Shown: positions 5,742-27,701, counted from the first letter of the stretch. The stretch is 29,430 nt of DNA from a virus (IMGVR_UViG_3300046028_005495:1-29430), one strand, 5' to 3'. Translations and numbers: made by a program. Notes: generated by a model from the letters alone, not told the origin.

Positions 5742-8198
5742 GTGGCTAATGAAAGAATTGTAAGTCCTGGCGTGTTTACGGTAGAAAAGGATCTTTCGTT
5801 CTTACCACAGGGAATTGCACAGATTGGTGCAGCACTTATCGGACCAACAATGAAAGGTCCGGCATTTGTTCCTACGGTAGTTCAAGGATATAATGACTTC
5901 GTAACACATTTTGGTGGAACATATGAGCAATCGTATCTTCCATATACTGCTAAAAGCTATCTGAATAATGCTGGTAGTGCAACGATAGTTCGTGTACTCG
6001 GTTCAGGTGGTTATTCCTTGTTGTACCCACTTGCCGTGGTTGCAACTGGTTCGTATGGAAAGAGATTGATTTCTCTTCTACACCCTACTTTTGTTGTAAC
6101 GACTGAAGCTACAGCATTGTTTGAGAAATCTACTCTTGCTTCAAATGCAAGTGGTTCATTTGTCATTAGAGTTTCTGGTTCATTTGGAACAGATAACTCG
6201 GCTTTTACAGGAAATGCTGTTAGTGAAAACGGAACACCGTTTAGTTCATCAATTGACCCTGAATCAACTGCATTTATTGGAAACCTTTACGGATACAATC
6301 CATATGGAACACACGCAGTTTATAACTATGTGAATTTCAAATGGGCTGCTTCAGCATCATTGGCCGCGGACCCAACTACAAGAATTATATTGGAAAGTGG
6401 TTCTGCTGCTTCACCATGGCAATTCACTAATGATTACCTCGAAGCTTCTACTCCGTGGATAACTTCTCAAAAAATTGGTGGTGCTGTAACGGACCTCTTC
6501 AAGTTCCATACACTTTCACACGGTATTCATTCTAATTATGAAGTGAAGGTTGGTATTGCAAATGTTCGTCCAGCTGGTACAATCGCTGGTTCTGAATATG
6601 GTGACTTTGATGTTGTAGTTCGTTTTGTGGATCAATCAAAGCTCCCACAAACTCCATTTACATCAGAAGATGATGATCTCCGTCCAAATGTGGTAGAACA
6701 ATTCAAGTGTAACCTTGACCCTAATTCACCACGTTATATCGCTAGAGTAATTGGTGATAGATACATCACAATTACAGATGAAGGAAAGGTTGTTGTAAAT
6801 GGTGATTATTCTAACAAGTCAAAGTATATCCGTGTAGAGGCAACTGAAGCTGTTTCTAACGTTGCTATTTCTCCGTCACTTGTTCCTTTTGGATTCCGTG
6901 CACCTTACTCACCAATCCCACTTAGTTCGGATGGTAGTGTTGGATTCTCACAACCAAGTGCAGCAACATATGTATCGGCCCAAACAGTAGGTGGTTCATA
7001 TAACCGTAGAGTATATTTTGGATTTAGCTACGATTTCGATACAACAGACAACTTCAACTTCTTACGTCCGTTGCCTGTTGCTTCATATTTGACAACTGGT
7101 TCAAATGCAGACTTCTATCTTGGTGATTATAATCAAGCTGCTGGGGCAAACTTCCCATCATCTGCAACTGGATATAGTTCGTCAATCGACCTTACTGTAA
7201 ACACTGCTCTTGATACACGTAAGTTCATGATTCCATTCCAAGGCGGATTTGATGGTCACAAGCCACACCTCCAAAAGAAGACCGGAACATACATTCTAAA
7301 CACAAATACACAGGGATTCGATATATCAACAACTTCTGCTGATGGATATGTTTCATATAAGAAGGCAATTGATGCGGTATCTAACCCTGATGAATTTGAC
7401 ATCAACATGATTGTAACACCAGGTGTTGTTCACTCGTTGCACTCACCAATCACAACATACGCTAAGGATGTTTGTGAAGACCGTGGTGATGCTTTCTATG
7501 TGATGGACTTGATTGGCTACAACGATAACATCAATACTGCTGTTTCAACAACAGAAGGATTTGATTCTAACTATGTTGGAACATACTATCCGTGGGTTAA
7601 GATTCTTGACTTCGATAGAAACAAGCCAATTTGGGTTCCACCTTCAGTTGTTCTTCCTGGTGTTATTGCATTCAACGACCGTGTTGCTGCTGAATGGTTC
7701 GCACCAGCTGGTCTGAATCGTGGTGGTCTCACAGAAGTTATCGAAGTGAAGACACGTCTTACACACGCTGAGCGTGATACCCTTTATGAAGCACGTATCA
7801 ACCCAATCGCAGTATTCCCATCAACAGGAGTATGTGTATGGGGTCAGAAGACACTTCAAGGTCGTCCATCTGCTCTTGACCGTATCAACGTTCGTCGTCT
7901 CTTGATTGCAGCTAAGAAGTTCATCGCATCTGCTACACGTTACCTTGTGTTCGAACAAAACACAACACAAACACGTACACGATTCCTGAACATTGTTACT
8001 CCATATCTTGAGTCAATCCAACAACGTCAAGGTCTTTATGCCTTCCGCGTTATCATGGATGAGTCGAACAACACACCTGACATCATCGACCGTAACATTC
8101 TTTATGGTCAATTATACCTACAACCTGCTAGAACTGCTGAATTCATTATTCTTGACTTCAACATTCAATCAACAGGTGCAGCATTCCCAGGTGCCTAA
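5742..8198 (+). CDS. 18: Contractile tail sheath protein (gp18-like)
   Basis: An 818-residue tail sheath subunit. The N-terminus MANERIVSPGVFTVEKDLSF is the usual sheath opening (SPGV followed by a strand that donates to a neighbour). The C-terminal third carries the conserved sheath core: NPIAVFPSTGVCVWGQKTL, INVRRLLIAAKKFIASATRYLVFEQN and the terminal strand EFIILDFNIQ. The middle (about 110-480) is a long, Ser/Gly-rich insertion that should form the outer protruding domains. It is larger than T4 gp18 (659 residues). The start is GTG, supported by GGAG 8 bases upstream; no other start fits the family N-terminus. Codon choice shifts toward CGT, ATC and AAC in the last third, as expected for a very highly expressed protein. 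A strong terminator follows. Confidence 0.96.
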   Translation: MANERIVSPGVFTVEKDLSFLPQGIAQIGAALIGPTMKGPAFVPTVVQGYNDFVTHFGGTYEQSYLPYTAKSYLNNAGSATIVRVLGSGGYSLLYPLAVVATGSYGKRLISLLHPTFVVTTEATALFEKSTLASNASGSFVIRVSGSFGTDNSAFTGNAVSENGTPFSSSIDPESTAFIGNLYGYNPYGTHAVYNYVNFKWAASASLAADPTTRIILESGSAASPWQFTNDYLEASTPWITSQKIGGAVTDLFKFHTLSHGIHSNYEVKVGIANVRPAGTIAGSEYGDFDVVVRFVDQSKLPQTPFTSEDDDLRPNVVEQFKCNLDPNSPRYIARVIGDRYITITDEGKVVVNGDYSNKSKYIRVEATEAVSNVAISPSLVPFGFRAPYSPIPLSSDGSVGFSQPSAATYVSAQTVGGSYNRRVYFGFSYDFDTTDNFNFLRPLPVASYLTTGSNADFYLGDYNQAAGANFPSSATGYSSSIDLTVNTALDTRKFMIPFQGGFDGHKPHLQKKTGTYILNTNTQGFDISTTSADGYVSYKKAIDAVSNPDEFDINMIVTPGVVHSLHSPITTYAKDVCEDRGDAFYVMDLIGYNDNINTAVSTTEGFDSNYVGTYYPWVKILDFDRNKPIWVPPSVVLPGVIAFNDRVAAEWFAPAGLNRGGLTEVIEVKTRLTHAERDTLYEARINPIAVFPSTGVCVWGQKTLQGRPSALDRINVRRLLIAAKKFIASATRYLVFEQNTTQTRTRFLNIVTPYLESIQQRQGLYAFRVIMDESNNTPDIIDRNILYGQLYLQPARTAEFIILDFNIQSTGAAFPGA

Positions 8199-8780: not shown

Positions 8781-9269
8781 ATGGCTGAATTACTTGATCC
8801 TACCGAAATATTTTTTACCCCGTATGAACCGAAACTTGCCAACCGGTTTATCATGTATATTGAAGGCGTCCCAGCATACCTCATCAAAGGTGCAGGTAGA
8901 CCAAACATCAACTTCAACCCAATCACACTTGACCACATCAATGTCAAGCGTAAGGTAAAAGGTAAGGGTGAATGGCAGGACGTGACTATCAAGCTATATG
9001 ACCCGATTGTACCATCAGCTGCACAGGCAGTCATGGAGTGGGTTCGTCTATCACACGAGTCTGTAACAGGTCGTGACGGATATTCTGACTTCTATAAGAA
9101 GGACATCACATTCAACGTTCTTGGCCCAGTTGGTGACAAGGTTGAAGAATGGACTTTGAAGGGTGCTTTCATTACAGCAACAACATTTGGTGATATGGAT
9201 TGGTCAACGGATAACTTCGTTGAAATCTCTCTCACACTTGCTTATGATTACGCAATCCTCCAGTTCTAA
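8781..9269 (+). CDS. 19: Tail tube protein (gp19-like)
   Basis: A 162-residue protein, the same size as T4 gp19 (163). It has the tube-protein plan: an N-terminal strand region (EPKLANRFIMYIEGVPAYLIKGAGRP), the central VKGKGEWQDVTIKLYDP segment, and the C-terminal EEWTLKGAFITATTFGDMDWSTDNFVEISLTLAYDYA strands that form the inner beta-barrel of the hexameric ring. The KGAFI, DMDW and LAYD residues are typical of phage tube proteins. It has its own TATTTATA box and GGAG site, and an inverted repeat follows, so it is probably expressed as its own abundant transcript. Its codon choice resembles the sheath C-terminal region. Confidence 0.95.
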   Translation: MAELLDPTEIFFTPYEPKLANRFIMYIEGVPAYLIKGAGRPNINFNPITLDHINVKRKVKGKGEWQDVTIKLYDPIVPSAAQAVMEWVRLSHESVTGRDGYSDFYKKDITFNVLGPVGDKVEEWTLKGAFITATTFGDMDWSTDNFVEISLTLAYDYAILQF

Positions 9270-10751: not shown

Positions 10752-13700
10752 ATGGCTCGTAGAAATAATACACAAAATCCTAATCAGAATCAGCAACCGC
10801 AACAGCAACCGTCTCGGCCATCAGCTGATGCAGAGAACGCCAGAAGCAGAGCTGCATCAGAATATAATCGTATTCAAGGAGAAATTCTAGAAACAGAGCG
10901 GAAACTTGCAGAAGCTAGAGCTATAACTGCGCGCACAGCGGATGAACAACTTGAGAAAGACCGCAAAATATCGCAACTTGTACAAGAACGAGTGGTTCAC
11001 TTACAACAACTTCAAGCTCAAGAACAAGAAATATCATCAATATTGGATGATCAAGAGAATACCGAAAAAAATATAGTAGAAATAATAAGAAAAAGACGGC
11101 GAGACCAGTCTGAAGTGAAAGACTTGTCACAATCTGTTCTAGTAAGTATGAGAGAACAGAGACATGAAATGACAGAAATTAGTGACGTTGGTAGACAAGT
11201 TACCGAAAATATGCAAGCTAGTTCTGACCTTTCCAGAAAGTTTGGTAATATACTACAAACAGTTACCAATCAATTGGCTGATGGAGCAAACTTTTCAGAC
11301 CAATTTATGGATACCCTCCAAGAAACAAATAAAGTTCGTGAAGAATACCGTAATCTTGAAAGAGAAATAGCTGATGGTGCAAAAGCAGCCGCAGAAGGTA
11401 AATATGATTCTAAAAAAGTAGAAGAAGATTTAGCAAAGAAAATGACTAAAATTCGAATTGATGAAGAGGCGTTTCAAGATAAGATGAATGAGTTCTTGGA
11501 AAATAGAGAAAATATGACCGAAAAAGAAATACTAAATAAACAAATAGAGCTAGATATAGAACGAGAAGCATTGAATGCAAGAAGAGGTGCCCATGATATA
11601 ATGTTACAACAAAATAAAGCATTGGGAGAGGCATCTGAAACAGCTGAAAAAACACTTGGGGTACTTGATAAAATAACAAGCGGGGATTTCAAAGGCGCAC
11701 TACTTCAGAAATTCGGACTGGATGACATAAATTCTCAGCTAAAAGAAAAAGTTGGCGGTGCCCTTGTAAATGTAGTAAAATCTGTAAAAGCAGGTGACTT
11801 GAAAGGTGCATTTTCTGAAGCTGGTAAAGGTCTCAAGAGTATTCTTGATATGGCTGGTAAATTGACAATGGCTCTAGGTATAGGTGCCATTCTTATGTTG
11901 GGAAACTTCCTAATCAATTCATTTGGAAAATTGGATAAAGAAGTTTCACAGCTCGGTAAAGACTTTGGTATAAGTAAGAATGAGGCGAAAGAACTTCATC
12001 ATACTGCAGTAGACGTTTCAAATGAAATGCGAGTTACTGGAATACATTCTGAAGAAATTGCAAAGAGTCTAAAAACAGTTAGTGATAATCTCGGTGGAAT
12101 TGATTTGACTGGTGCATTTGCAAGTGGTAATGCTCAAGTTCAACAGATGGTAAAAGATACCGCACTTCTTACTGAGAAATTTGGATTGAGTGCTGAAGAA
12201 GCTGGTAATCTAAGTAACATAGCCGCCATATCTGGTAAATCGGTTGGTGAAATGAGTATGATGGCATCTACTCTTGGTAAGGGTATATTCTCTGCAAAAG
12301 ACTCTATGAAGATACTTGCTGGTATTCCAAAGAGTATTGTATCTCAAATGTCAAAAATGCCAGAGGCAATGATAAAGACTGCAATGCACGCAAAGATGCT
12401 TGGTATGAATATGAAGCAAATTGCGGACATTGGTCGTAAGAGTCTTGATATTGAACAGTCTCTTGAGGCTGAAATGGAAGCCCGTGTATTGCTTGGTCGA
12501 GAAATAAACTTGGATGCCATGAGACAAGCTGCACTTGCAGGTGACCAAGAAAAGGTAATGAACGAACTTCTAAAACAAGTCGGTTCGATGGAAGACTTCA
12601 ATAAGATGAATGTACTTCAGAAAGAAGCTCTCGCAAAAGCTGCAGGTATGGAAGTTGACCAAATGGCTGAAATGCTTGGAAAACAAGAAGAACTCAATAA
12701 GGCTGGATTATCACAACAACAATTACAAGAACTCCAAGCAAAAAATGCAGGTGATTTGGCAAAGATGGCTGCAGAAACTGGTGATAAAGACAAAAAGGCA
12801 TATCTTGAAAAATTGGCCGCAGAGAAAAAGTCTGAAGAAACACAAGCAGCAATGGCGGATTTGATGAAACGAATTCAGGAAATTGCTGTAAAACTGTTAG
12901 ATCCAATATTGGATATGGTTGACGGTCTCATGAATGGAAAAGACGGTGCCGAGGCAATGGATGGAATTCTAAATGCAGTAAAAGGAACCGTTGGTTTTAT
13001 AAAACCTATTATTGCAGCTATAGCTGCTACAATAGGTTATATTGTAAAACCATTGACTTGGATACTTGGATTATTTGGAGATTCTAAAGAACAGACTCAA
13101 GAAATCGCAAAAACAACTGGAAAGGTAGGAGATGGAGTACAAGCAGTCACTAACCAAGTAAAACCACTAACATCTGGATTTGGAAGTGTTCTCACTGCTC
13201 TTACTGCAATAGGTGGTTACTTCTTTGGTAAATCTTTACTCGTAAAGGGAATGGATTTACTAAAAACTAAAGCATTGGATTTTGGTTCTGCTATGGTATC
13301 AAAAGTTGCTGGTTCATTTGATAAAGTACAAGACAAAGCAACTGGTGTAACTAAAACACTTATGGGTAAAGTCAGCGGTGCAACCAAGAAAATTGGTGAA
13401 AAGATTGGCGGAAGTGTTGCAGATAAAGGGGCAGAAGCTGTATCAAAAGCACCAATTCCAGGCGGTCCTGGTAAAAAAGGTAGTGCATTTAAAGACTTTT
13501 TTAAAAAAATGGATCCGAAGAAAATGTTAGCTGGCGCCGCTGCACTTCTTATTGTTGCTGCCGCACTTTATGTTGCAGCAAAGGCAATGCAAGAGTTTTC
13601 AACCGGTGTGAAATGGGAGGGTGTGATTATGGGTATAGTTACACTTGGTGCTCTTGTAGGGGCAGTTATGGTACTTGGTGCGATAATGTCATCGGGAGTA

Positions 13701-14702
13701 GGTGCGGTGGCAATTATAGCTGGCGCTGCTGCATTGTTTATATTATCAGGTGCATTATATGTTATGGGTAAGGCAATGCAAGAATTTTCAAAAGCAGCTG
13801 TTATACTAATTCCGTTTTTTCAAGAAATGACTAAATTGGATATGGATAAACTTGCAAAATTAGCCATAAACATCGCACTATTAGGTGGGGCATTTGCTCT
13901 TCTTGGTACAATGATGGTGCCTATAATGATGGGTGCTGCCGCATTTGCAGTATTAGGTGCATCACTTGCCGTGTTCGGTGTTGCTGCGATGATTGCTGGA
14001 AAAGGAATAAAGGACATAACCACAAGTATTGCAGAACTTTTAAATTTTGATAGTTCAAAATTTGATGGAGTTGCAAAGGGTCTTGGAACTATTGGTGATG
14101 CCATTTTGAAAATGGGTGCTGGTAGTTTGATGTCTGGTGTTGGTGACGGCATATCCAAATTATTTGGTGGTGGAGAAAGTCCATTGGACAAGGTGGCAAA
14201 TATATCACAAAAACTAAATCCAGAAAAACTATCCGCAACAGCGAAGGCCATAAAAGATTTGGCAGATTCATTCAAGTATTTTGCAGATGAAACCGCAAAA
14301 CTAAAAGAGTTTGATACAGATAAATTAGACTCAATCATACAAAAAATGGAAGAAGTCCAACAGGCAGAAGCCGCAGGTGGCATGGCAAAGGCAGTGACTG
14401 GAGTAGCAAATGCGGTTACTGGATTTATTGGTAATCTGTTTGGTTCTCCAGAACAACAATCGTCACAACCAGTTTCTGCTGGTACTACTGCGATTAGTGG
14501 AGCCGGTGGCGGAGGTGGTACAACAAATATGGCTAATGTTGAGAAGAAACTCGATACACTTATATCTGTTATATCACAAGCTGCAAACCAACCACTTGTT
14601 ATCAAGTTTGGTGAGAAGACAGTGGAAGAAATAAAATCACAACTTAACTTCAAAGCGTCAACGGACATCGGTGTTAACAAGGGATATGCTAAAACTATAT
14701 AA
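10752..14702 (+). CDS. Tail tape measure protein
   Basis: A 1316-residue protein with the classic tape measure build. A Gln/Asn/Pro-rich start (NQNQQPQQQP) leads to about 300 residues of charged coiled coil, then a Gly/Ala/Lys-rich helical middle with many Met and Gln residues. A strongly hydrophobic Ala/Gly/Leu/Ile/Val region follows at about residues 925-1085, with four or five potential membrane-crossing helices. These could insert in the host membrane during ejection. The C-terminus is a helical segment, a Gly-rich linker and a short globular end. No peptidoglycan hydrolase motif is evident. Length sets tail length in this class: at about 1.5 angstrom per residue, it would predict a tail near 200 nm, about twice T4 (gp29, 590 residues). 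No clear Shine-Dalgarno precedes the ATG. Confidence 0.9.
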   Translation: MARRNNTQNPNQNQQPQQQPSRPSADAENARSRAASEYNRIQGEILETERKLAEARAITARTADEQLEKDRKISQLVQERVVHLQQLQAQEQEISSILDDQENTEKNIVEIIRKRRRDQSEVKDLSQSVLVSMREQRHEMTEISDVGRQVTENMQASSDLSRKFGNILQTVTNQLADGANFSDQFMDTLQETNKVREEYRNLEREIADGAKAAAEGKYDSKKVEEDLAKKMTKIRIDEEAFQDKMNEFLENRENMTEKEILNKQIELDIEREALNARRGAHDIMLQQNKALGEASETAEKTLGVLDKITSGDFKGALLQKFGLDDINSQLKEKVGGALVNVVKSVKAGDLKGAFSEAGKGLKSILDMAGKLTMALGIGAILMLGNFLINSFGKLDKEVSQLGKDFGISKNEAKELHHTAVDVSNEMRVTGIHSEEIAKSLKTVSDNLGGIDLTGAFASGNAQVQQMVKDTALLTEKFGLSAEEAGNLSNIAAISGKSVGEMSMMASTLGKGIFSAKDSMKILAGIPKSIVSQMSKMPEAMIKTAMHAKMLGMNMKQIADIGRKSLDIEQSLEAEMEARVLLGREINLDAMRQAALAGDQEKVMNELLKQVGSMEDFNKMNVLQKEALAKAAGMEVDQMAEMLGKQEELNKAGLSQQQLQELQAKNAGDLAKMAAETGDKDKKAYLEKLAAEKKSEETQAAMADLMKRIQEIAVKLLDPILDMVDGLMNGKDGAEAMDGILNAVKGTVGFIKPIIAAIAATIGYIVKPLTWILGLFGDSKEQTQEIAKTTGKVGDGVQAVTNQVKPLTSGFGSVLTALTAIGGYFFGKSLLVKGMDLLKTKALDFGSAMVSKVAGSFDKVQDKATGVTKTLMGKVSGATKKIGEKIGGSVADKGAEAVSKAPIPGGPGKKGSAFKDFFKKMDPKKMLAGAAALLIVAAALYVAAKAMQEFSTGVKWEGVIMGIVTLGALVGAVMVLGAIMSSGVGAVAIIAGAAALFILSGALYVMGKAMQEFSKAAVILIPFFQEMTKLDMDKLAKLAINIALLGGAFALLGTMMVPIMMGAAAFAVLGASLAVFGVAAMIAGKGIKDITTSIAELLNFDSSKFDGVAKGLGTIGDAILKMGAGSLMSGVGDGISKLFGGGESPLDKVANISQKLNPEKLSATAKAIKDLADSFKYFADETAKLKEFDTDKLDSIIQKMEEVQQAEAAGGMAKAVTGVANAVTGFIGNLFGSPEQQSSQPVSAGTTAISGAGGGGGTTNMANVEKKLDTLISVISQAANQPLVIKFGEKTVEEIKSQLNFKASTDIGVNKGYAKTI

Positions 14703-14719
14703 GAAGATGGCATCATTGA

Positions 14720-14745: not shown

Positions 14746-17700
14746 ATGGCATTAGTAGATTTATCATCCGACCTTTCTAAATTTCGTTCTGAAGTTTCTC
14801 GTGAACCAAAGAGTACACCAGAGTCATCAAAGGCAACGAATAATAAGAACTTTGCAACCTTTCAGCCTATAACTGAAAAGTTGTCTCAGTTTTCTATGAA
14901 TGTGAAACGCCAAGAGCCTAAAAAATTGGAATCCAAACTTGAGTCTACAAATTTAGATGATATAAAAAAAGTGGTTTCTCAAAACTTGATAATCAATCGA
15001 GTTTCGAGATTGTCAAACATAAACCAAGATTATGATGGACAAAATAGGGCTGCAATTCCTACCGCAATGGTATCTGAAAGACTTGGACAGGTTCAAATAA
15101 CTGAATTTTCTAGTAGACTAACAAAATCAGATATTATACCGATAAAACAATCACAGGGTACTAATAACAATATATCTGGTATAAATGTAGAAACTCAAAG
15201 TCAGGGGATTTATAACAACATATCCCCAGTGGAAGTTACTAATGATAAGGACGAACAATCCAACAATATAGTAAATCCAGATGTAGATATAATTGTACCC
15301 GTTCAGTCATTTGATAGAACGGCAACTAGCCCTGATATAAAACCAAATCTAACTGATTCTTCGGATAATATAACCGACCCAAAAATCGAAATAACAAGAC
15401 CACCACAATCTTTTGATAGGGAAGAACAATCTATTGAAATATCAAAAGATTTAGTTTCACCTATCAACAATATAACTGATCCAAAAACAGTTTTAGACTT
15501 GAATGTTCTTACATACGAAAGAGCAAAACAAAGTCCTCCGATAGTGACTGATAGAAGACAAGATGGCTTTGTAACAGACCCAAAAACGGGTGTTTTTAGA
15601 TTTGATGGCGCAACTATACAGACTGACGATAATAGTAGACTGAATATAGATGGATTACCTATTAGATTTATTCCAATATCTCAATTGGAAAAATTCGAAT
15701 TACCACGAGAAGTTGATATAGCAAGATATGACTTGGAATCTATACAGACTGAAGATAACAGTAATCTGAACGTGGATGCCGTGATAAAAACAAATCCTTC
15801 TGGTAGACATGAAGACCCATCCGTTTCTGGACTTTCTATAATCGGAACACAATCTGTAAACTTTTTTACAGACACAAAAGCCAAGGGGTTTGTAGTTAGA
15901 CAACAAGGTGGAGAAACATTATACACAGGACAGTCTGTATTTGGATGGTCTGGTAAGCGTGAGTCTGCTCCAACAACCAATTTTATATCCGATACAAATG
16001 GTAAAGGTTTTACAAAGTTTGCACAAATTGGACAAACATTGTATGAAACGGAATCTTCTGTTTTTGGTTTTACTACAATACAGTCTACTGACTTTTTTGA
16101 TGTGACCAAAAAGTACAGTTCAGATGGGTTCAAATTATTTGCGACTTTATATGAATCAGACTACAAAAAAGATTCGTCACAATTTACCTTCAATGGTGCC
16201 GCAGATTCTGCACCTGTTGTAAACTATTTTGATTTGAACGGAAAAGTTACATCTGATGGCTTCCACAAATTTGCTCAGATTTATGACACCAAATATGTAC
16301 CAGATTCTTCACTATTCACATGGACTGGTAATAGAGATGGTGCACCAGAATCAAACTTCTTTGATGTAAATTCTACTTCAACTACTTCTGGATTCCATAA
16401 GTTTGCGCAAATCTATGATACAAAGTACATACTAGATTCTTCAATCTATGACTGGGATGGTACACGAGAAGATTCTCCGGAAGTAAACTACTTCGATATT
16501 TCTGGTAAGAATACAAAATTTGGATTCCATAGATTTGCTCAGATTTATGATACAAAATACATACCGAACTCTTCAATTTATGACTGGGACGGTACTTCTG
16601 AAAATGCACCTGAAGTAAACTATTTTGATATAATAGGAAAAAATACATCGCAAGGATTTCATAAATTTGCTCAATTGTATCAAACAAAATATGTCCACGA
16701 ATCTTCGGATTTGGATTGGAATGGTGTAAGAACGGATGCACCTGAAGTAAACTATTTTGATATTACAGGAAGAAACACAAACGCCGGTTTTCACAGACTG
16801 GCTCAATTGTATGATACAAAGTATATTCATGAGTCATCCGATTTTGATTGGAATGGTGTAAGAACAGATGCACCCGAAGTAAACTATTTTGATTTGACTG
16901 GTCAACATACAACAAGTGGATTTCATAAACTTGCACAGATTTATGATACAAAGTATGTTCATGAGTCTTCATTGTTTGATTGGAATGGTGTAAGAACAGA
17001 TGCACCTGAAGTAAACTATTTTGATCTTGGTGGAAGAAATACAACAATTGGTTTCCATCGTCTGGCTCAATTATATGATACAAAGTATATTCATGAGTCT
17101 TCATTGTTTGATTGGAATGGTGTAAGAACAGACGCACCTGAAGTCAATTTCTTTGACCTAAATAAACAACATCAGACAGTTGGATTTCATAGACTTGCTC
17201 AAAAGTATGATACCAAATTTATCAAAGACTCATCTTTATTTGATTTTGACGGCGGAAGTAGTAATGCACCTGAAGTTAATTTCTTTGACTTGAACGGTCA
17301 ATTCACATCAAAAGGATTTGAGAAATTCCCACAGGCACTCGTAACTAGGTACATAAAAGATTCATCTCGATTTGATTTTGATGGCAATAGTAAAAGTGCA
17401 CCTGAAACTGATTTTTTTGATCTTTCTAAGAAATTTACATCAAAGGGATTCGAGAAGTTTCCACAATTATTAGTTACCAAATATATCAAGGATTCTTCAC
17501 AGTTTGATTTTGATGGAACAAGTAAAAGTGCACCAACAACAGACTTCTTCCCAAACACCAATGCAAAAGGATTCACATCGTTCCCTCAAAAACTTCAGAC
17601 GGAATATGTAAAAGACAGTAGTGAATTTACATTCAAAGGTTCTTTACCATCGGCAGTGAATTTCTTCCCAGATGATAACCAATCTGGATTTATAAATAAG

Positions 17701-20700
17701 ACACCGTTGTTGGAAACAAAATACGAAAAGGATTCATCAAGATTTACGTTCAAAGGTACTTTACCAGAACCAGTTGATTTCTTTCCAAATACATCAGCAC
17801 CTGGGTTTGAAATAAAAACAGCACCACTCGAAACAAAATACATACAGGACGTTAGTAGATTTACATTCAAGGGAACTCGTGCAGATGCACCAAATGTGAA
17901 CTATTTCCCAGATGATTTCAATAGTGGATTTACAACACTAGCTCAGCCTCTTTCTACCGAGTATCAATCTGATATATCGAGGTTTACATTCAAGGGAACT
18001 CGTCAGGACGCACCATCTGTTGATTATTTACAAAATAATCCTGCATCTGGATTTGAGATACTAACACAGCCTCTTCAAAGTAAATACAAAAAAGAAGTTA
18101 GTAGATTTACTTGGGTAGGTACAAGACAAGATTCTCCGGAAGTTGATTTCCTAAAAATTCCAAATGGTAATCCAAATTCTATAAATGGATTCACGAGATT
18201 ATTTGCCGATGTAACTGATACTAAACTTTCAGATTCATTCTCAAGATTTTCAATAGAAAGTGCAAACAGTTTTTCTTCTGTAAAGAAAGTCCCATATACA
18301 AAGTTCTTTGGTTTCTTACCAATTGAACGTTCTGGATTTTTAGTTGGAATGACAAATGTCAATTCTTCACTATACCCACTATTCAATCCGAAATTGACAC
18401 CAGATGATCCGGCAGGAACTAGATTTTCAATAGAAGGACAACGTAGTCAAAATAGAAGACAAATGACCGATAACGTTGCGAAGTACGCTCCAAAAACTCT
18501 TGGTGGTTTATTTTGGTCAGACGGAATCAATACTGGAACAGCAACTCTTGATAATCAAGTTCCGTACATAAAAACGAAAGAACCTGATTCGTTTGGAAGT
18601 ACATACTTCCGCAAATATGAGAAGTTGGCTAAAGATTCAACTGAAAGTCTTGGTTACTTGACAAAGTGGGCAATAACTAGGAGGTCACCTTCACCACTTG
18701 ATGCTCAATATAATAAGTACAAGCTTCAAGCTGAATCAACAAACTACGGTTCTCCAAATTCCCTTCAACCTTATGTTGTTCGCGGTATTCAACGAGACGG
18801 TGAAGTTGAAAATCAGCGTTGGGGGTTTGGTGTAAATTTCGATGATGGATTTGTACGGGGTGGAGTAGTCACACAAGTTGAGAGAATATTTGAAGACTTG
18901 AAACGAATAGGTCAATGGTCTCTTAGTACAAAAGGATTGATGTTCAATATACGTCAACTTGCATTACAAGTTATGAATCCTGTTACGGATGTTGACCCCG
19001 ATAATAAATTCACAAGTGGAATAATCGGACTACCTTATCCATCGACTATGTTGTATAATCCGTTTTCTCTTGTAGCTAATATAGCAACGGCTAGAATAGG
19101 TCTACATTTACCTCGTCATGGTATATTGCCTTTCAGTAATATTTTTCTGAACAAATATGAAACTGCTACAAAAAATAGAGAACTGAAATTAGATACATCG
19201 AATCCAGAATACAAATCTTGGGAAAATGTATCAAAACCTTCATCTAGCAACAGAGACCCAGACGGAAAAAGTAGATTGATAGGTTTGATGAAAGAACTTT
19301 TGCCTAATTCGTTTAGTCCAATCGTATCATCAACTAGGACACAGATTCCATCACTTCCATCGGAAGCACAGCAAGCTATTGATACGGCAAGAGGATTAGA
19401 TTCATCTAGTCCGGATGCCGCAAAATATGCAGAAGATAAAGCAAAACAAATACAGACAGACGTGAATAACGGAAAAGAGGCATATAAAAATCCTGGACAG
19501 GGGTCTACTAATGCTTCTGGATTTGGTGAATCATCTACTATAAATCGTTTGACAACATCATTTGGAGGACCAAATTCATTTTTGGGAATTGGTGGAACAA
19601 CATTCAACAGAGCAGGTCATCCGTATCTTACATACTATACAACAAACCCAGATTTGTATGACTCTAAACATCCTTCATATAATGATTTCATGAAGAGAGA
19701 TACATATTTTGCGGCAACCAAAACATACGGTGATGTTTTACTATCCAATAGCACTATTAGAGCTTTGTACTATCTACTCGGTGGAGACGCAAATAAACCA
19801 GCGGATATTCCAACATTGGATAGTGTAGATGTTCCTGTTCAGAAGGGTGTGAAGGATATACTGAAAGCATCGTTATCATTGTCCGCAGAATATCCACTTG
19901 AAAACACTAGATTGTTTGCAACAACCAAATATGATCAGGCAATTTCAACCAAGAAAAAAATATCACAAGGGCCACAGGTTGACCCAGAAGGTATTCCTGG
20001 TGCTATACGAAGATATAGAACTTCAAATTATGATCAACTGAAACGTAATGATAGACGTAGGAGTAGTAAATTCAATGATTTTAGAGGTTCAATTACTTTG
20101 GACGAGAAGACAAAGGCATTTGTTACAAATCCAGATATTGCTAGATTCGATACAAGAAATCTAACAGATAGATATGGATTTGGCGATCAAGGTGAACCTG
20201 GAGCTCAACGAGACCTTCCATATTTGAGTACAATTCAATACTCAAGATTTGCAAAGGAAGGTATATTCAATTCAGGTGAAAGTGAATTCAAAGATTATGC
20301 TGTATCTTCTGAAAAGATAATAGATGGACAAAAACAGAAGTTTAGAGGAGACCGAATAAATATCATAGATTACAAGCGAGCAAATTTCAACATAAACACA
20401 AACTTGGTTTATGAAAAAGGGGAATATACTGACCAATTACCTGGTGCTGACGATTTGATTGAATTTTACTTTTCAAGTCTTGTATTGAGTGGTCATAAGA
20501 ATTGCCCAGCCGAAGTTATTGTATTTAGAGCATCATTCAATAGTATAACTGATAATCACAATCCATCTTGGAATTCTGTAAAATATATGGGACGTGCAGA
20601 CCCACTATATGTATATCAAGGGTATGAAAGAGAAATATCATTTGGATTTACAGTACACATTGGTTCTCGTGATGAAATGAAAGCTTCTTGGAGAAAGTTA

Positions 20701-21363
20701 AATTATCTTGCTTCTTGGACTGCCCCTGAGTATATTAGAAGTGGATTGATACGTGGACCTATGATTCGTTTGAATATAGGACACTTGTATAGAAAAATGC
20801 CTGGATATATTTCTTCACTTTCATATACATTTGATAATTCACAAACTACATGGGAAACCGCAAAATTACCTGAAGATATGGCACTAGCAGACCCAACAGT
20901 TTCAAAACGAGTCAAACCTGGAGTTTTACAGCTACCTAAACACGTAGATGTAAGTATCTCATTTGTTCCTGTTGGAGTTTACAGACCAGAATTCCGTGGA
21001 ATTATGTATAGTCTTTATGATGACCGTGTTTCAGGAAACAATGTAGAAACAGGACTACAACCACTTACAAGTAAGAAGGTAAATTATTTCAATGAATTTG
21101 ATGATACTGATGAGCCGGTAATTTATAGTGGAGTCGATGTTGATAAGAAAGGTTCTCTTGCTGAAAGGGATTATGGTGCCGCTGCAAATGCAAATCGCGC
21201 AATAGACAGCGAACCTATTTTCAGTAGCGAAGTTGTCCCGGAACCAGATACGAGTGGCCTTCAAGAATTTAACGAACAACAAAGAGCTCAACAAGATGCC
21301 GAACAGATGGAAAGAGTAAGATCTGAAGCTGGAGATTTTTCTGATATAAGTGGGTTAGGTTGA
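14746..21363 (+). CDS. Giant repeat-containing baseplate protein (possible tube-initiator-like C-terminus)
   Basis: A 2205-residue protein, the largest in the window. Residues 1-370 are low in hydrophobics, rich in Asn/Asp/Ser/Thr, and contain loosely repeated phrases (NNIS, NITDPK, SFDRE). Residues about 371-1230 are some 19-20 repeats with the signature (N/D)(Y/F)F-x-GF-x-Q-x-TKY-x-DSS-x-F-x-G; see the repeat feature. Residues about 1230-1880 are non-repetitive, including QLALQVMNP and IGLHLPRHG. A folded C-terminal domain (about 1880-2140) contains DLIEFYFSSLVLSG, GRADPLYVYQGYEREISFGFTV, RGPMIRLNIG and VDVSISFVPVG, patterns I associate with baseplate or tube-initiator proteins of large myoviruses. 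The last 60 residues are acidic and Gln-rich. Its position between tape measure and LysM/gp53-like genes supports a baseplate role. The exact function and the purpose of the repeats are unknown. Confidence 0.75.
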   Translation: MALVDLSSDLSKFRSEVSREPKSTPESSKATNNKNFATFQPITEKLSQFSMNVKRQEPKKLESKLESTNLDDIKKVVSQNLIINRVSRLSNINQDYDGQNRAAIPTAMVSERLGQVQITEFSSRLTKSDIIPIKQSQGTNNNISGINVETQSQGIYNNISPVEVTNDKDEQSNNIVNPDVDIIVPVQSFDRTATSPDIKPNLTDSSDNITDPKIEITRPPQSFDREEQSIEISKDLVSPINNITDPKTVLDLNVLTYERAKQSPPIVTDRRQDGFVTDPKTGVFRFDGATIQTDDNSRLNIDGLPIRFIPISQLEKFELPREVDIARYDLESIQTEDNSNLNVDAVIKTNPSGRHEDPSVSGLSIIGTQSVNFFTDTKAKGFVVRQQGGETLYTGQSVFGWSGKRESAPTTNFISDTNGKGFTKFAQIGQTLYETESSVFGFTTIQSTDFFDVTKKYSSDGFKLFATLYESDYKKDSSQFTFNGAADSAPVVNYFDLNGKVTSDGFHKFAQIYDTKYVPDSSLFTWTGNRDGAPESNFFDVNSTSTTSGFHKFAQIYDTKYILDSSIYDWDGTREDSPEVNYFDISGKNTKFGFHRFAQIYDTKYIPNSSIYDWDGTSENAPEVNYFDIIGKNTSQGFHKFAQLYQTKYVHESSDLDWNGVRTDAPEVNYFDITGRNTNAGFHRLAQLYDTKYIHESSDFDWNGVRTDAPEVNYFDLTGQHTTSGFHKLAQIYDTKYVHESSLFDWNGVRTDAPEVNYFDLGGRNTTIGFHRLAQLYDTKYIHESSLFDWNGVRTDAPEVNFFDLNKQHQTVGFHRLAQKYDTKFIKDSSLFDFDGGSSNAPEVNFFDLNGQFTSKGFEKFPQALVTRYIKDSSRFDFDGNSKSAPETDFFDLSKKFTSKGFEKFPQLLVTKYIKDSSQFDFDGTSKSAPTTDFFPNTNAKGFTSFPQKLQTEYVKDSSEFTFKGSLPSAVNFFPDDNQSGFINKTPLLETKYEKDSSRFTFKGTLPEPVDFFPNTSAPGFEIKTAPLETKYIQDVSRFTFKGTRADAPNVNYFPDDFNSGFTTLAQPLSTEYQSDISRFTFKGTRQDAPSVDYLQNNPASGFEILTQPLQSKYKKEVSRFTWVGTRQDSPEVDFLKIPNGNPNSINGFTRLFADVTDTKLSDSFSRFSIESANSFSSVKKVPYTKFFGFLPIERSGFLVGMTNVNSSLYPLFNPKLTPDDPAGTRFSIEGQRSQNRRQMTDNVAKYAPKTLGGLFWSDGINTGTATLDNQVPYIKTKEPDSFGSTYFRKYEKLAKDSTESLGYLTKWAITRRSPSPLDAQYNKYKLQAESTNYGSPNSLQPYVVRGIQRDGEVENQRWGFGVNFDDGFVRGGVVTQVERIFEDLKRIGQWSLSTKGLMFNIRQLALQVMNPVTDVDPDNKFTSGIIGLPYPSTMLYNPFSLVANIATARIGLHLPRHGILPFSNIFLNKYETATKNRELKLDTSNPEYKSWENVSKPSSSNRDPDGKSRLIGLMKELLPNSFSPIVSSTRTQIPSLPSEAQQAIDTARGLDSSSPDAAKYAEDKAKQIQTDVNNGKEAYKNPGQGSTNASGFGESSTINRLTTSFGGPNSFLGIGGTTFNRAGHPYLTYYTTNPDLYDSKHPSYNDFMKRDTYFAATKTYGDVLLSNSTIRALYYLLGGDANKPADIPTLDSVDVPVQKGVKDILKASLSLSAEYPLENTRLFATTKYDQAISTKKKISQGPQVDPEGIPGAIRRYRTSNYDQLKRNDRRRSSKFNDFRGSITLDEKTKAFVTNPDIARFDTRNLTDRYGFGDQGEPGAQRDLPYLSTIQYSRFAKEGIFNSGESEFKDYAVSSEKIIDGQKQKFRGDRINIIDYKRANFNINTNLVYEKGEYTDQLPGADDLIEFYFSSLVLSGHKNCPAEVIVFRASFNSITDNHNPSWNSVKYMGRADPLYVYQGYEREISFGFTVHIGSRDEMKASWRKLNYLASWTAPEYIRSGLIRGPMIRLNIGHLYRKMPGYISSLSYTFDNSQTTWETAKLPEDMALADPTVSKRVKPGVLQLPKHVDVSISFVPVGVYRPEFRGIMYSLYDDRVSGNNVETGLQPLTSKKVNYFNEFDDTDEPVIYSGVDVDKKGSLAERDYGAAANANRAIDSEPIFSSEVVPEPDTSGLQEFNEQQRAQQDAEQMERVRSEAGDFSDISGLG
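15859..18270 (+). repeat. About 19 in-frame tandem repeats, twelve of exactly 132 bp
   Basis: Taking the Asn/Asp codon before the aromatic pair as the register, units begin at 15859, 15979, 16090, 16222, 16354, 16486, 16618, 16750, 16882, 17014, 17146, 17278, 17410, 17542, 17659, 17776, 17899, 18022 and 18145. The eleven intervals from 16090 to 17542 are all exactly 132 bp (44 residues). Flanking intervals are 111-123 bp. Units around 16618-17146 are nearly identical in DNA (for example GATTGGAATGGTGTAAGAAC at 16846, 16978 and 17110), while outer units share only the protein signature. A degenerate twentieth unit may follow to about 18430. Confidence 0.95.
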
Positions 21364-21396: not shown

Positions 21397-21738
21397 ATGT
21401 CTTCAAGATATGAAAATTCAAACATAATAACTAATTCCAGGAAAGTAGAATCTGATGGTAAAGTGAAAATAGTCAGAAGACTAAAGACAACTTTATATCC
21501 AGATTTCAATCAATTTTTGAGTGAAGACACATATATTCTATCACAAGAAAATGATAGGCTGGATATTCTAGCTAAAGAATTTTATGGAGATGAAGTTTTT
21601 TGGCACGTAATTGCAAAAGCAAACGGAATAGGACATGGAACATTGGTAGTTCCTCCCGGTATGATAATACGAATACCGTATTATGATGAATACCAACCTA
21701 TATCAAAACTTATAAAAGATTTGAATGAAAGGCGATAG
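21397..21738 (+). CDS. 53: LysM-like baseplate wedge protein (gp53-like)
   Basis: A 113-residue protein. Residues about 43-97 form a LysM-like unit: DTYILSQENDRLDILAKEFYGD, then FWHVIAKANGI, then VVPPGMIIRIPYYDEY. This is the beta-alpha-alpha-beta pattern, with a tyrosine-containing first strand, the DxLxxIA-type helix and the proline-bounded last strand. Small LysM-type proteins of this kind are baseplate parts in contractile systems; T4 gp53 (196 residues) contains such a fold. It lacks the extra domain of T4 gp53. AAAGG precedes the ATG, and the stop lies 2 bases before the hub-like gene, so the two are co-translated. LysM folds can bind glycan, but in baseplates they are structural; I favour the structural role. 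Confidence 0.75.
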   Translation: MSSRYENSNIITNSRKVESDGKVKIVRRLKTTLYPDFNQFLSEDTYILSQENDRLDILAKEFYGDEVFWHVIAKANGIGHGTLVVPPGMIIRIPYYDEYQPISKLIKDLNERR

Positions 21739-21740
21739 TT

Positions 21741-24056
21741 ATGGCATCTGATGCATCTGGAAAATACAACCCGTTTTACAGACAAGTTTCGGGCGATGTT
21801 TCTGGTGAACTAAATAAGCGAGGTGATTTTTATGGATCACGAGTTAGGTCGCAACGAGTAGTACCCGGTACAAAAGGGTTCCCAGAAGCTGAAAGACTTT
21901 TATGGTCTTATGGAAAAACGGCATATGCAATAGTGCGTGCTGGGGGAATAACGCTTGGTGGGTCTGGTACAAGAGTTATGTCAGATAGAGGTGGAAATCT
22001 AACTCTGTATGATTCAACTAGAAATCAACCTAAATATCCATTACTCCAATCTATTGAATTATCAAATGAAGGAACTATTGGTTCTCTTCTAAAAGGTTCA
22101 TTCACCTTTACTGTCTATCCTGATATTTCTTCTTCTGGATTTGCAATGGAAGGTTTAGAAAATGCCTTCTTCAAACCAGGAAAAGAAGTTACTATAAAGT
22201 ATGGGTGGTCTGTTAGAGATGGTGGTCCAAATAACGGTGAACTAACCGGTATAATTTACAATTTCGATTGGAGTGTAAATAACGATTTATCTATAACCGC
22301 GAAGTGTAGTATTGTTTCAAAGGCAACTATTGCAATAGGTGTTTCTGGTGAACAGACAAACAAAGAAACAAATGACCCAAAAGAAGATCCACTCGGGCAA
22401 CCAATACCGGATGGTGATTTAGCTGGTATTCTTGAGTCTGATGTGAAGTTATTGGGTGGATTACAAAACAAGAGTGTAAATACTGGAACAACAAAGTATT
22501 ACACGAAATCTGAAGTTGGTGGTTCCCAAAAATTTGATTACTATGTAATTGGTATGCCAATGAGTTTGGCAGATGTACCCGATGATCAATTATCTGATGC
22601 AGATAAACAAAAAAAAGCAGACTATGAAAGTAATAAAGAAACACAAAATAAAAAGAATGATTTGGTAAAGAAGTTTGCAACTGGCATACAAGGTGAAAAA
22701 GAAGCACGTGTGGGATTTGAAAAGGCAAAAGCATCAGGACAAACTGAATTTGTTTGGAGAGAGAATGGGGTCGATAAAAAAGGAGACGCAGGAGCTTATG
22801 ACGCTTACTTGACTAAAATCAGCAATGATAGACGAAACAGACTAAGAGAAGAATATCGATCAACTTTTGGAACCAGTCCAGGAAGTGCTGGTGAAAATGA
22901 TTTGGTAAAACAAGCAGAATCGGCAGGAACGTCTGCCGCAGCTGCGAAGGCATCAGGACAAGCAACAGCTGCAAACCAAAATCAAGGAGAAGGTCCTTAT
23001 GGTGCAAAAGCACCGGCACCAGTAACTCAACCCGTATATTTTGTAAAACTTGGAGATTTGACTCAATTTGTAAATCTGATATTAGATACGTCTCCCCTCG
23101 GTGCGAGTTTGTTTACGGTCCAATGTTTTGGAAACACAACAAAACATTTGCCAGACATAGCATCATCTGCACCAGAACGTGTATTTTTCCCAGACGATGA
23201 GATGGGAACGTATGGTGATTTCAAACCATATGCTGGTTCTGGATTTTTGAAAAATGAAACATTGATTGATATTGGAAACATTCTAATATCAACCACAGCC
23301 GTTATAGAAACGTATCGTTCATTTGTAAAAGAAAACCAAACAAGTATAGAATATAAAAATCTAACTGGATTTTTTGATAAACTAATACAAGAAGTTAACT
23401 TTGCATCGGGTGAAATGTATCAATTGGCTACTCAACTGATAGACCCGCCTAAAGGTGGAAAGGGCGGTACTAAGGCTATACTTGCAATAGAAGATACCAA
23501 TATTGCGTCTGAAGTAATAGATAAAGTTACACCATTTCCTTTTACGGCTACTATTGCAAAACCTATTCTAAAATCCGTTAGTATAAGTTGTAAACCACCT
23601 GCAGCATCCGCCGCCGCAGCATACACGCAGGCGAGAGGTGATGGTAGAGTTGGTGGTGATGTATCATATTCGGCTAAAGGTGTACCGGATGAATTTACTG
23701 CTGCATATAATGGTATTCAAAAATCGAAAGACGGCTTCTTAACAAACGGAGCTGGTCCTCAGTTCACAACGGGTCTAAAGGGAAATTATGCAAGATATAA
23801 GAGGACATCTCCTGCAAATGAAAGTAGTCATTGGCTAACTAAAGTTTTGTATCCGATAGATTTTTCATTGACTATTGATGGTATAGATGGTTTTAAGTTT
23901 GGTGATGTCATACAGACAAATCTTATACCATCTAGATATAATCAAGAAGGTATGGTATTTGTTGTTACTAAAATTGGTCACACTATTCAAAACGGTGTTT
24001 GGGAAACTACTTTGAACACAAAGGCAAGAATAGATCCATCAAAACTACAACAATAG
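21741..24056 (+). CDS. Baseplate hub-like protein
   Basis: A 771-residue protein. The N-terminal region (about 40-200) has hub-type beta segments: LLQSIELSNEGTIGSLLKGSFTFTVYP, PGKEVTIKYGW and GELTGIIYNFDWSVNNDLSITAKCSIVS, as in proteins that form the hub ring and switch from tube to spike. A long, charged, Ala/Lys/Gly-rich insertion (about 205-415) looks flexible. The C-terminal half resumes folded sequence and closes with FSLTIDGIDGFKFGDVIQTNLIP and VFVVTKIGHTIQNGVWETTLNTKARI, a typical end of gp27- or gpD-type hub proteins. It is about twice the size of T4 gp27 (391). No lysozyme motif is visible, unlike T4 gp5. It follows the LysM protein after 2 bases, with AAAGG in the overlap. The hub role is inferred from pattern and position. 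Confidence 0.6.
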   Translation: MASDASGKYNPFYRQVSGDVSGELNKRGDFYGSRVRSQRVVPGTKGFPEAERLLWSYGKTAYAIVRAGGITLGGSGTRVMSDRGGNLTLYDSTRNQPKYPLLQSIELSNEGTIGSLLKGSFTFTVYPDISSSGFAMEGLENAFFKPGKEVTIKYGWSVRDGGPNNGELTGIIYNFDWSVNNDLSITAKCSIVSKATIAIGVSGEQTNKETNDPKEDPLGQPIPDGDLAGILESDVKLLGGLQNKSVNTGTTKYYTKSEVGGSQKFDYYVIGMPMSLADVPDDQLSDADKQKKADYESNKETQNKKNDLVKKFATGIQGEKEARVGFEKAKASGQTEFVWRENGVDKKGDAGAYDAYLTKISNDRRNRLREEYRSTFGTSPGSAGENDLVKQAESAGTSAAAAKASGQATAANQNQGEGPYGAKAPAPVTQPVYFVKLGDLTQFVNLILDTSPLGASLFTVQCFGNTTKHLPDIASSAPERVFFPDDEMGTYGDFKPYAGSGFLKNETLIDIGNILISTTAVIETYRSFVKENQTSIEYKNLTGFFDKLIQEVNFASGEMYQLATQLIDPPKGGKGGTKAILAIEDTNIASEVIDKVTPFPFTATIAKPILKSVSISCKPPAASAAAAYTQARGDGRVGGDVSYSAKGVPDEFTAAYNGIQKSKDGFLTNGAGPQFTTGLKGNYARYKRTSPANESSHWLTKVLYPIDFSLTIDGIDGFKFGDVIQTNLIPSRYNQEGMVFVVTKIGHTIQNGVWETTLNTKARIDPSKLQQ

Positions 24057-26930: not shown

Positions 26931-27701
26931 ATGAAACGTATAAACGAAGCAACATTACTTTCAACTGGAAACGCAACATCACTAATGGTATTTATTGATT
27001 TGGCTATGGTTGTTGAAAAACAACGTGGTATGTTGCCAATAGCCTTTCCAAAATTAGGAAATAAGGGAATCAATAAGATGTTGAGAGGGTTTGCCTCCAA
27101 TGAAACTTATTCGGATAAAAAAGAACAACTCCTCGGTATTTCAGAAAGATTTTACAACAACGGTCCTATCAAGGCATTGTATAAAACACTCGCATTCCTC
27201 TCATCACAACCAACAAAACCAGAAGAATCTGATAAAAGAATTGGAGATGTAAACCGTGTTCTCTCTAAAATTGAAAGAATGATAAACGGTAAACTAACAG
27301 ACGAAGAACGTGAAATGTTTTCCCAAATGGAAGATAGTCTTGATAATTTTAGTGACGGTCTGAACTCAAATCTAAATTCTTCATTGGAATCTTCAGTTGG
27401 TCAAGAAGAACCATCTCCAGAAGAGAAGCCAGAAGAAAAACCAAAGGAAGAACCGAAACCAGATGAGAAACCTAAAGAAACTCCAAAGCCGGAAGAAAAA
27501 CCAAAGGAAGAACCGAAACCAGATGAGAAACCTAAAGAAACTCCAAAGCCGGAAGAAAAACCAAAGGAAGAACCAAAGCCAGAAGAAAAACCAAAGGAAG
27601 AACCAAAGCCAGAAGAAAAACCAAAAGAAAAGACGGAAGAACAATTCAGAAGTCTAATAAAAAGACTTGTTCGGGAATCTTTAAAAGAATTTCAAAAATA
27701 A
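26931..27701 (+). CDS. Protein with Pro/Glu/Lys repeat linker and C-terminal basic helix
   Basis: A 256-residue protein. Residues 1-155 form a helical domain (for example INKMLRGFASNETYSDKKEQLLG and ALYKTLAFLSSQP). Residues about 162-233 are a low-complexity linker of KPEEKPKE-type units. The C-terminus is an amphipathic basic helix (SLIKRLVRESLKEF). The N-terminus MKRINEATLL contains INE|A, which fits the T4 prohead protease gp21 rule ((L/I)xE|(A/G/S)), so a virion-internal protein cleaved near its N-terminus is possible. I cannot assign a function. AGAGGAAA is well placed before the ATG. Confidence 0.75.
   Translation: MKRINEATLLSTGNATSLMVFIDLAMVVEKQRGMLPIAFPKLGNKGINKMLRGFASNETYSDKKEQLLGISERFYNNGPIKALYKTLAFLSSQPTKPEESDKRIGDVNRVLSKIERMINGKLTDEEREMFSQMEDSLDNFSDGLNSNLNSSLESSVGQEEPSPEEKPEEKPKEEPKPDEKPKETPKPEEKPKEEPKPDEKPKETPKPEEKPKEEPKPEEKPKEEPKPEEKPKEKTEEQFRSLIKRLVRESLKEFQK
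27414..27632 (+). repeat. In-frame 60-bp and 30-bp repeats encoding the KPEEKPKE linker
   Basis: A 60-bp unit (20 residues, alternating EEKPKEEPKP and DEKPKETPKP) is repeated nearly perfectly at about 27432 and 27492, then shortens to 30-bp units (EEKPKEEPKP) to about 27632. The near-identity of the DNA indicates recent slippage or unequal recombination. Confidence 0.9.

Follow-up and report, generated by a model that had tools for sequence, protein, structure and literature searches.

A T4-like phage baseplate protein with tandem modules whose number tracks the length of the tape measure protein

In tailed phages one protein, the tape measure protein (TMP), is understood to set the length of the tail. 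Here we describe a second protein that keeps step with the TMP in whole modules. It is encoded in a 29,430-nucleotide virus record (IMGVR_UViG_3300046028_005495:1-29430; "the window" in the following means this whole 29.4-kb stretch) that carries the tail genes of an uncultured T4-like phage. The protein has 2205 aa (14746..21363, plus strand, as are all coordinates given here unless noted otherwise), and the long repeat array in its N-terminal half is one of three interchangeable types of tandem module, the total number of which is locked to the length of the TMP. Over 37-39 array-bearing relatives the module count accounts for TMP length with a raw R2 of 0.93-0.96, and with R2 0.87-0.93 when contrasts are taken on five different trees. 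The step is about 20 TMP residues per module, equal within error for all three module types. All evidence is sequence-based, and TMP length serves as a proxy for tail length.

Eleven complete units of exactly 44 aa (132 bp) follow one another in the array without any indel, starting at residues 449, 493 and so on to 889 and filling residues 449-932 (16090..17541). A sequence-only reading of this DNA had counted twelve exact units; the start of the twelfth (residue 933, base 17542) does keep the register, but it heads a unit of only 39 aa, which shares 30-39% DNA identity with the others. The array opens with two units of 40 residues each at residue 369 (15850..16089), which form a conserved landmark, and closes with short units of 39, 39, 41, 41 and 41 aa (residues 933-1133; 17542..18144). 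Independently, Tandem Repeats Finder detects this array (period 132/264, score up to 730). DNA identity between units ranges over 52-83%, which makes an indel-free stretch of eleven units notable; the central units (residues 625-757), which had been described as nearly identical in DNA, actually share 74-83%. When the window phage and its relatives (labelled L001 and so on) are taken together, the GF-GF spacing is exactly 44 in 314 of 680 measured cases. The proposed fixed unit length holds for the window phage and most relatives and fails in L066, which has eight units of 50 aa, and in L097, L103, L239 and L240, where units of 54-109 aa contain inserts. The eight units of L066 (residues about 515-915 of a 2202-aa protein) are consecutive and very alike, and look as if one 6-aa insertion had been spread by homogenisation; on the same contig the TMP is seemingly split into two frames.

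The modular part exceeds the array. The N-terminal 368 residues (14746..15849) are also built from shorter modules, in steps of 16-20 aa that are recognised by the indel sizes among relatives. Reading of the sequences distinguishes three tandem module types, mutually unrelated in sequence. Type A (20 aa, KPIESRLxxTKLDDI) reaches up to 7 copies in L101. Type B (about 17 aa, with a range of 16-18 aa, DKTEQSPDI or NNITDPKI) is expanded in L059, and type C is the 44-aa unit expanded in the window phage and in Microcystis phage Mel-JY01. The pre-array region of the window protein holds types A and B, with a single type-A module, QEPKKLESKLESTNLDDIKK (14911..14970), that occurs in 0-7 copies in relatives. 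In pairwise alignments array lengths differ by 44 or 88 aa at a time, in support of the earlier proposal of growth in whole units, and the region before the array changes by 15-20, 31-34 or 60 aa; indels between relatives in this pre-array region cluster at 16-20, 31-34 and 52-68 aa. Gains in one part are often offset by losses in the other, with the TMP nearly unchanged (L050/L051, L057/L060, L026/L020); gains of two, three and four units with a matching loss of N-terminal modules go along with TMP shifts of +5, -1 and -14 aa. Single net gains are accompanied by a longer TMP, by 28 aa from L001 to the window phage, by 21 aa from L106 to L105 and by 30 aa from L011 to L001.

The sequence-only reading had proposed to set the number of repeats against TMP length in related phages, and this comparison turned out strongly positive. 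In a set of 30 relatives, phages with a longer N-terminal region have a longer TMP (r 0.92). Tree contrasts retain the correlation at r 0.68-0.74 (p below 4e-6) and yield r 0.17 for the remainder of the protein (0.37 without the L097-like phages). With modules counted, type B as length divided by 17, we obtain TMP = 470 + 20.9 x modules (n=37 phages, R2 0.955), and contrasts of the module count give R2 0.89 (p 2e-18). When the coefficients of the three types are left free (n=37, R2 0.955), they amount to 21.6+-2.3 TMP residues for A, 20.2+-1.5 for B per 17 aa and 20.5+-1.3 for C. Adding two distant members found later gives R2 0.93, with contrast coefficients of 21.2, 19.5 and 18.2 for A, B and C, while contrasts on a tree of the hub gene furnish 19.7, 19.5 and 19.3 (R2 0.91). 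The result is the same on trees of the TMP halves and on those of the pre-array region (R2 0.89-0.93), which speaks against an inherited block of TMP and array as the cause. As controls for specificity, neither the length of the rest of the protein (R2 0.003-0.03) nor that of the hub (R2 0.00-0.01) follows TMP length. The size scaling expected of a tail-length ruler is thus seen by proxy, as module count against TMP length.

The TMP follows the number of modules and not their residues. Residue length as a predictor reaches R2 0.40-0.55 in contrasts (0.46 where the module count gives 0.89). Two other predictors were rejected: the 44-aa unit counted as two half-modules lowers the contrasts R2 to 0.63 compared to 0.89, and total protein length is misled by the inserts in L097, L103, L107 and L099. 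These four phages, with proteins of 2837-2984 aa and inserts of about 10-60 residues, were held out; their observed TMPs have 1300-1303 aa, where the module model predicts 1263-1271 and the residue model 1393-1475. Because the insert-bearing relatives fit the count and not the residues, the step is taken per module, whatever its length or sequence. The sequence-only reading had named freely varying unit lengths as evidence against itself; unit lengths do vary in some relatives, and the count law survives this. The exact residue spacing, which had been considered the constraint, is not what is kept, since relatives with long inserts between units still obey the unit count. This per-module step is the strongest argument for a contact with a regular lattice. 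Module types, lengths and the counting scheme were derived on the same phages as the regression, and the outside tests of the count model are the held-out L097-type phages and the later-found L239 and L240 only, of which L239 was counted by hand (P 300, U 18). TMP lengths were taken from the first start codon of the open reading frame (ORF).

The coupling recurs in a second clade with unrelated repeats. Flavobacterium phage immuto encodes a protein of 716 aa (gp35, YP_010114648.1) that shares the C-terminal domain of the window protein at 35% identity. Among the immuto-like phages TMP length is again tracked by the length of the N-terminal region (r 0.78 by contrasts, p 1.5e-9) and by neither the remainder of the protein nor the hub. 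Two members, L188 and L185, are about 99% identical in DNA on both flanks of the TMP gene, and their genes for the modular protein, which differ by few substitutions, are 99% identical apart from a single additional unit of 72 aa. Between these flanks the TMP gene has been replaced: the two TMPs share 39% identity, and the one beside the extra 72-aa unit is 45 aa longer. This pair represents a natural TMP swap. Additionally, in the series L182, L179 and L181, a gain of 66 aa goes with a TMP longer by 56 aa, and a further gain of 58 aa with one longer by 47 aa.

The C terminus points to the place of the protein in the tail. AlphaFold predicts a confident domain at residues 1866-2110 (20341..21075), most of residues 1820-2080 reaching a pLDDT of about 85-94, and Foldseek matches it with probability 1.00 to several baseplate tube proteins. 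VIA-align gives Z scores of 9.5 for P1 (9ay5_G), 8.7 for PVC (6j0n_b), 8.2 for AFP (6rao_G), 8.1 for cyanophage A-1(L) (8kea_R) and 8.0 for T4 (5iv5_BE), the last over 149 aligned residues with an rmsd of 4.0. This T4 chain is probably gp48 and not the shorter gp54, as its residue numbers run from 37 to 358, and matches in BFVD include proteins named "baseplate tail tube cap" and "gp48". Sequence searches in Pfam, NCBIfam and the PDB gave nothing that ties the protein to gp48/gp54-like initiators. The predicted fold, together with the open frame and the homologues in Mel-JY01 and immuto, supports a baseplate protein with a tube-initiator fold at its C terminus, in agreement with the baseplate assignment made earlier. 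Between array and initiator domain lies a middle region (residues 1134-1865; 18145..20340) that is partly helical in an AlphaFold model of low to medium confidence.

The units themselves have no useful match in Pfam, PHROG, NCBIfam or the PDB, and the window protein compared with curated repeat families gives nothing above the cut-off, the best PDB match being weak (E 0.27); a known fibre or carbohydrate-binding family may nonetheless have been missed. Weak, short Pfam and PHROG matches within the repeats look accidental, as sums of tiny chance matches. Five units modelled alone by AlphaFold do not fold (pLDDT 41), which is compatible with a strand that would fold only on a scaffold. The array does not resemble a tape measure, as the units are non-helical and unfolded in this low-confidence model and a separate TMP lies upstream. 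The earlier view of each unit as a structural module is supported.

We favour, with a probability of about 0.6, a reading in which the N-terminal modular strand runs along the tail, each module spanning roughly one lattice step, as a length-matched ruler, lining or stay. The C-terminal domain would form the tail-tube-initiator ring at the baseplate, and the N-terminal half would leave the baseplate headward, alongside tape measure and tube, either in the lumen, in the gap between tube and sheath, or outside. Each module, whether of 17, 20 or 44 residues, would correspond to a constant increment of the tail, in the simplest case a single ring of tube and sheath. There would then be as many modules as tail steps over the covered stretch, and the strand would act as a quantised second ruler or as a lining or stay of matching length. 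After a change in TMP length, unequal crossing-over would add or remove modules until the match is restored. We infer the position of the strand and the ratio of one module per ring, and the modules may either set the length or follow it. The more specific idea of a second, digital ruler, which counts rings module by module, whatever the sequence and length of the modules, and helps the TMP to set or check tail length, is tentative and has about one chance in three in our view. We describe the protein as a probable tube initiator with a ruler-like extension and a real chance of being a second ruler.

For a comparison of modules with rings, two published values can be used: T4 tail rings are 40.6 A apart (PMC3004832), and the tail of TP901-1, whose TMP has 11- or 18-aa repeats, corresponds to 0.145 nm per TMP residue (PMC5099701). 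With this calibration the TMPs predict 38-51 rings, and the proteins have 34-50 modules. Several points weigh against our preferred reading. The step of about 20 TMP residues per module compares with 27-28 residues expected per 40.6 A ring at 0.145-0.15 nm per residue. In T4, a TMP of about 590 aa and 23 rings set an upper limit of about 26 residues per ring, and the ratio would be lower still if the ends of the TMP are not extended, which makes about one module per ring plausible. The intercept of about 470 residues implies either that part of the tail is uncovered or that the TMP has extra domains. Space for a strand within the lumen (40 A) would be tight, and the middle region points to an exit outside the ring. 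L240 and L239 have TMPs that are 82 and 44 residues longer than predicted. In the immuto-like clade, a unit of 60-72 aa pairs with 45-72 TMP residues, and L205 and L212 have TMPs of 1222 and 1202 aa despite short N-terminal regions. Finally, long TMPs are also found in array-less relatives, so a long tail does not generally require an array.

Other readings have to be weighed against the same data. The modules could bind the TMP during assembly, one per about 20 residues (about three heptads), as a holder or chaperone, so that the match would be to residues and not to rings. The common value of about 20 TMP residues for all three types would follow directly, and the adjacency of the two genes across the family and the site of a tube initiator beside the TMP anchor would suit such a role. 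However, TMPs diverge to 30-40% identity beside similar or near-identical modules, a poor fit for sequence-specific binding, and we regard this explanation as unlikely, at roughly one chance in five. Less probable still is that the array forms an external appendage of the baseplate, such as a fibre, a whisker or a coat of the sheath, with a reach that is matched to the tail mechanically, for example because it is folded back or braces the sheath. The large middle region between array and ring would be easier to place outside the tube, the units are rich in aromatic residues (share 0.167), and the elements of a unit can be separated by insertions of 10-60 aa. Against this, no fibre or sugar-binding family scores above threshold, no receptor-like C-terminal domain lies beside the array, and an equal step for three module types is unexpected in a free fibre.

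The correlation could also be a by-product of common descent, or of the exchange of TMP and array as one block, with no functional coupling. The genes are indeed adjacent, the phages are related, and TMP swaps occur. Yet the same slope is found by contrasts on five trees, including those of the TMP and of the array region; L188 and L185 differ by one unit in a 99% identical gene while the TMP was exchanged; and the coupling recurs in the second clade with other repeats, whereas the control lengths show none. We consider this very improbable. The sequence-only reading had proposed a local structure, with the units as rungs of a rod or as a wrap at the baseplate hub, unrelated to tail length. 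A wrap around the tube is compatible with our data and the domain is indeed one of the baseplate, with a strict 44-aa period in the window phage, but a purely local rod at hub or baseplate would not scale with the TMP, and module number does; unit length, moreover, is free in some relatives. The chance that such a local model is correct is, in our estimate, only a few in a hundred.

Compared to known systems, the C-terminal domain shares its tube-like fold with the initiators of T4 (gp48/gp54), PVC, AFP, pyocin R2, A-1(L) and P1, and tube initiators are likewise encoded between the TMP and further baseplate genes. T4 gp48 and gp54, however, are proteins of 35-40 kDa that lack a module array and are not tied by sequence families to the window protein, which adds about 1130 residues of modules and a middle region of about 730 residues. 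The T4 gp29 and the TP901-1 TMP have lengths that scale with the tail, as presumed for the modules, and the latter contains repeats too; the TMP here is nevertheless a separate helical protein just upstream, and the window protein scales by modules, not residues. An older link between gp48 and gp29 in T4 tube length is reportedly on record. In the open-access papers searched, which also concerned Mel-JY01 and a length role of T4 gp48, we found no description of a length-matched baseplate protein. A second protein that matches the TMP in discrete modules, at an equal step for three unrelated repeat types, argues for contacts that recur along the tail, and its module count could give a countable readout of tail length from the genome. 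How tail length is controlled, and how the parts of the tail evolve together, would become directly testable, since Mel-JY01 is isolated and immuto phages exist, and the arrangement may offer a design principle for length-matched protein assemblies.

A close relative is the protein of Mel-JY01, an isolated phage (WWT39329.1, annotated as hypothetical), with 46% identity over 96% coverage. It has the same architecture with 15 units of 44 aa, four more than in the window, and a TMP of 1348 aa, 32 longer; the same plan is found in L001 and L002 (10 units) and in L005. In the head module of Mel-JY01 (L008 1613-1840) a gene for ribosomal protein S21 (RpsU) is annotated. The C-terminal domain is spread far beyond the array-bearing phages, in homologues of 487 to 3136 aa. 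Array-bearing phages have proteins of 1768-3136 aa and TMPs of 1183-1556 aa. In the immuto-like clade, which shares the C-terminal domain and a conserved N-terminal start, the proteins are shorter (about 520-1010 aa), the repeats are different (about 57-72 aa) and the TMPs have mostly 776-1222 aa; a short array-less clade has proteins of 487-604 aa and TMPs of 540-605 aa. The TMP gene adjoins this gene throughout the family, with a small ORF in between in the immuto-like clade. No relatives were found in the bacterial genomes searched. A weak match to the C-terminal domain in Rhodothermus phage RM378 (NC_004735.1, 55658-56131, E 8e-6) indicates that the family may reach a phage of a thermophile. 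In L239 (3136 aa) the tube-initiator domain appears to be followed by a proline-rich linker and a fused OmpA-like domain, recognised by eye, that probably binds peptidoglycan.

The window encodes PhoH, a neck protein, sheath, tube, a hub-like protein, the TMP, the 2205-aa protein, a wedge-like protein, a probable hub and a single-strand DNA binding protein. The sheath (5742..8198; phrog_23, E 6e-73) is followed by the tube (8781..9269; phrog_4542, E 8e-27), the TMP of 1316 aa (10752..14702; phrog_4372 tail length tape measure protein, E 3.5e-5, and its upstream position), the 2205-aa gene and a small baseplate wedge-like protein of 113 aa (21397..21738; phrog_7145, E 1.8e-10), an order likewise seen in Mel-JY01 and immuto. 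The probable hub of 771 aa (21741..24056), which served as the length control, is without match in family searches and was assigned from gene order. A 30-bp tandem repeat at 27426-27629 gives rise to Pro/Glu/Lys-rich repeats in an ORF at 26931-27701. On the minus strand, an open frame of 298 aa (13820-14716) runs antisense to the 3' end of the TMP gene and is probably a by-product of codon bias.

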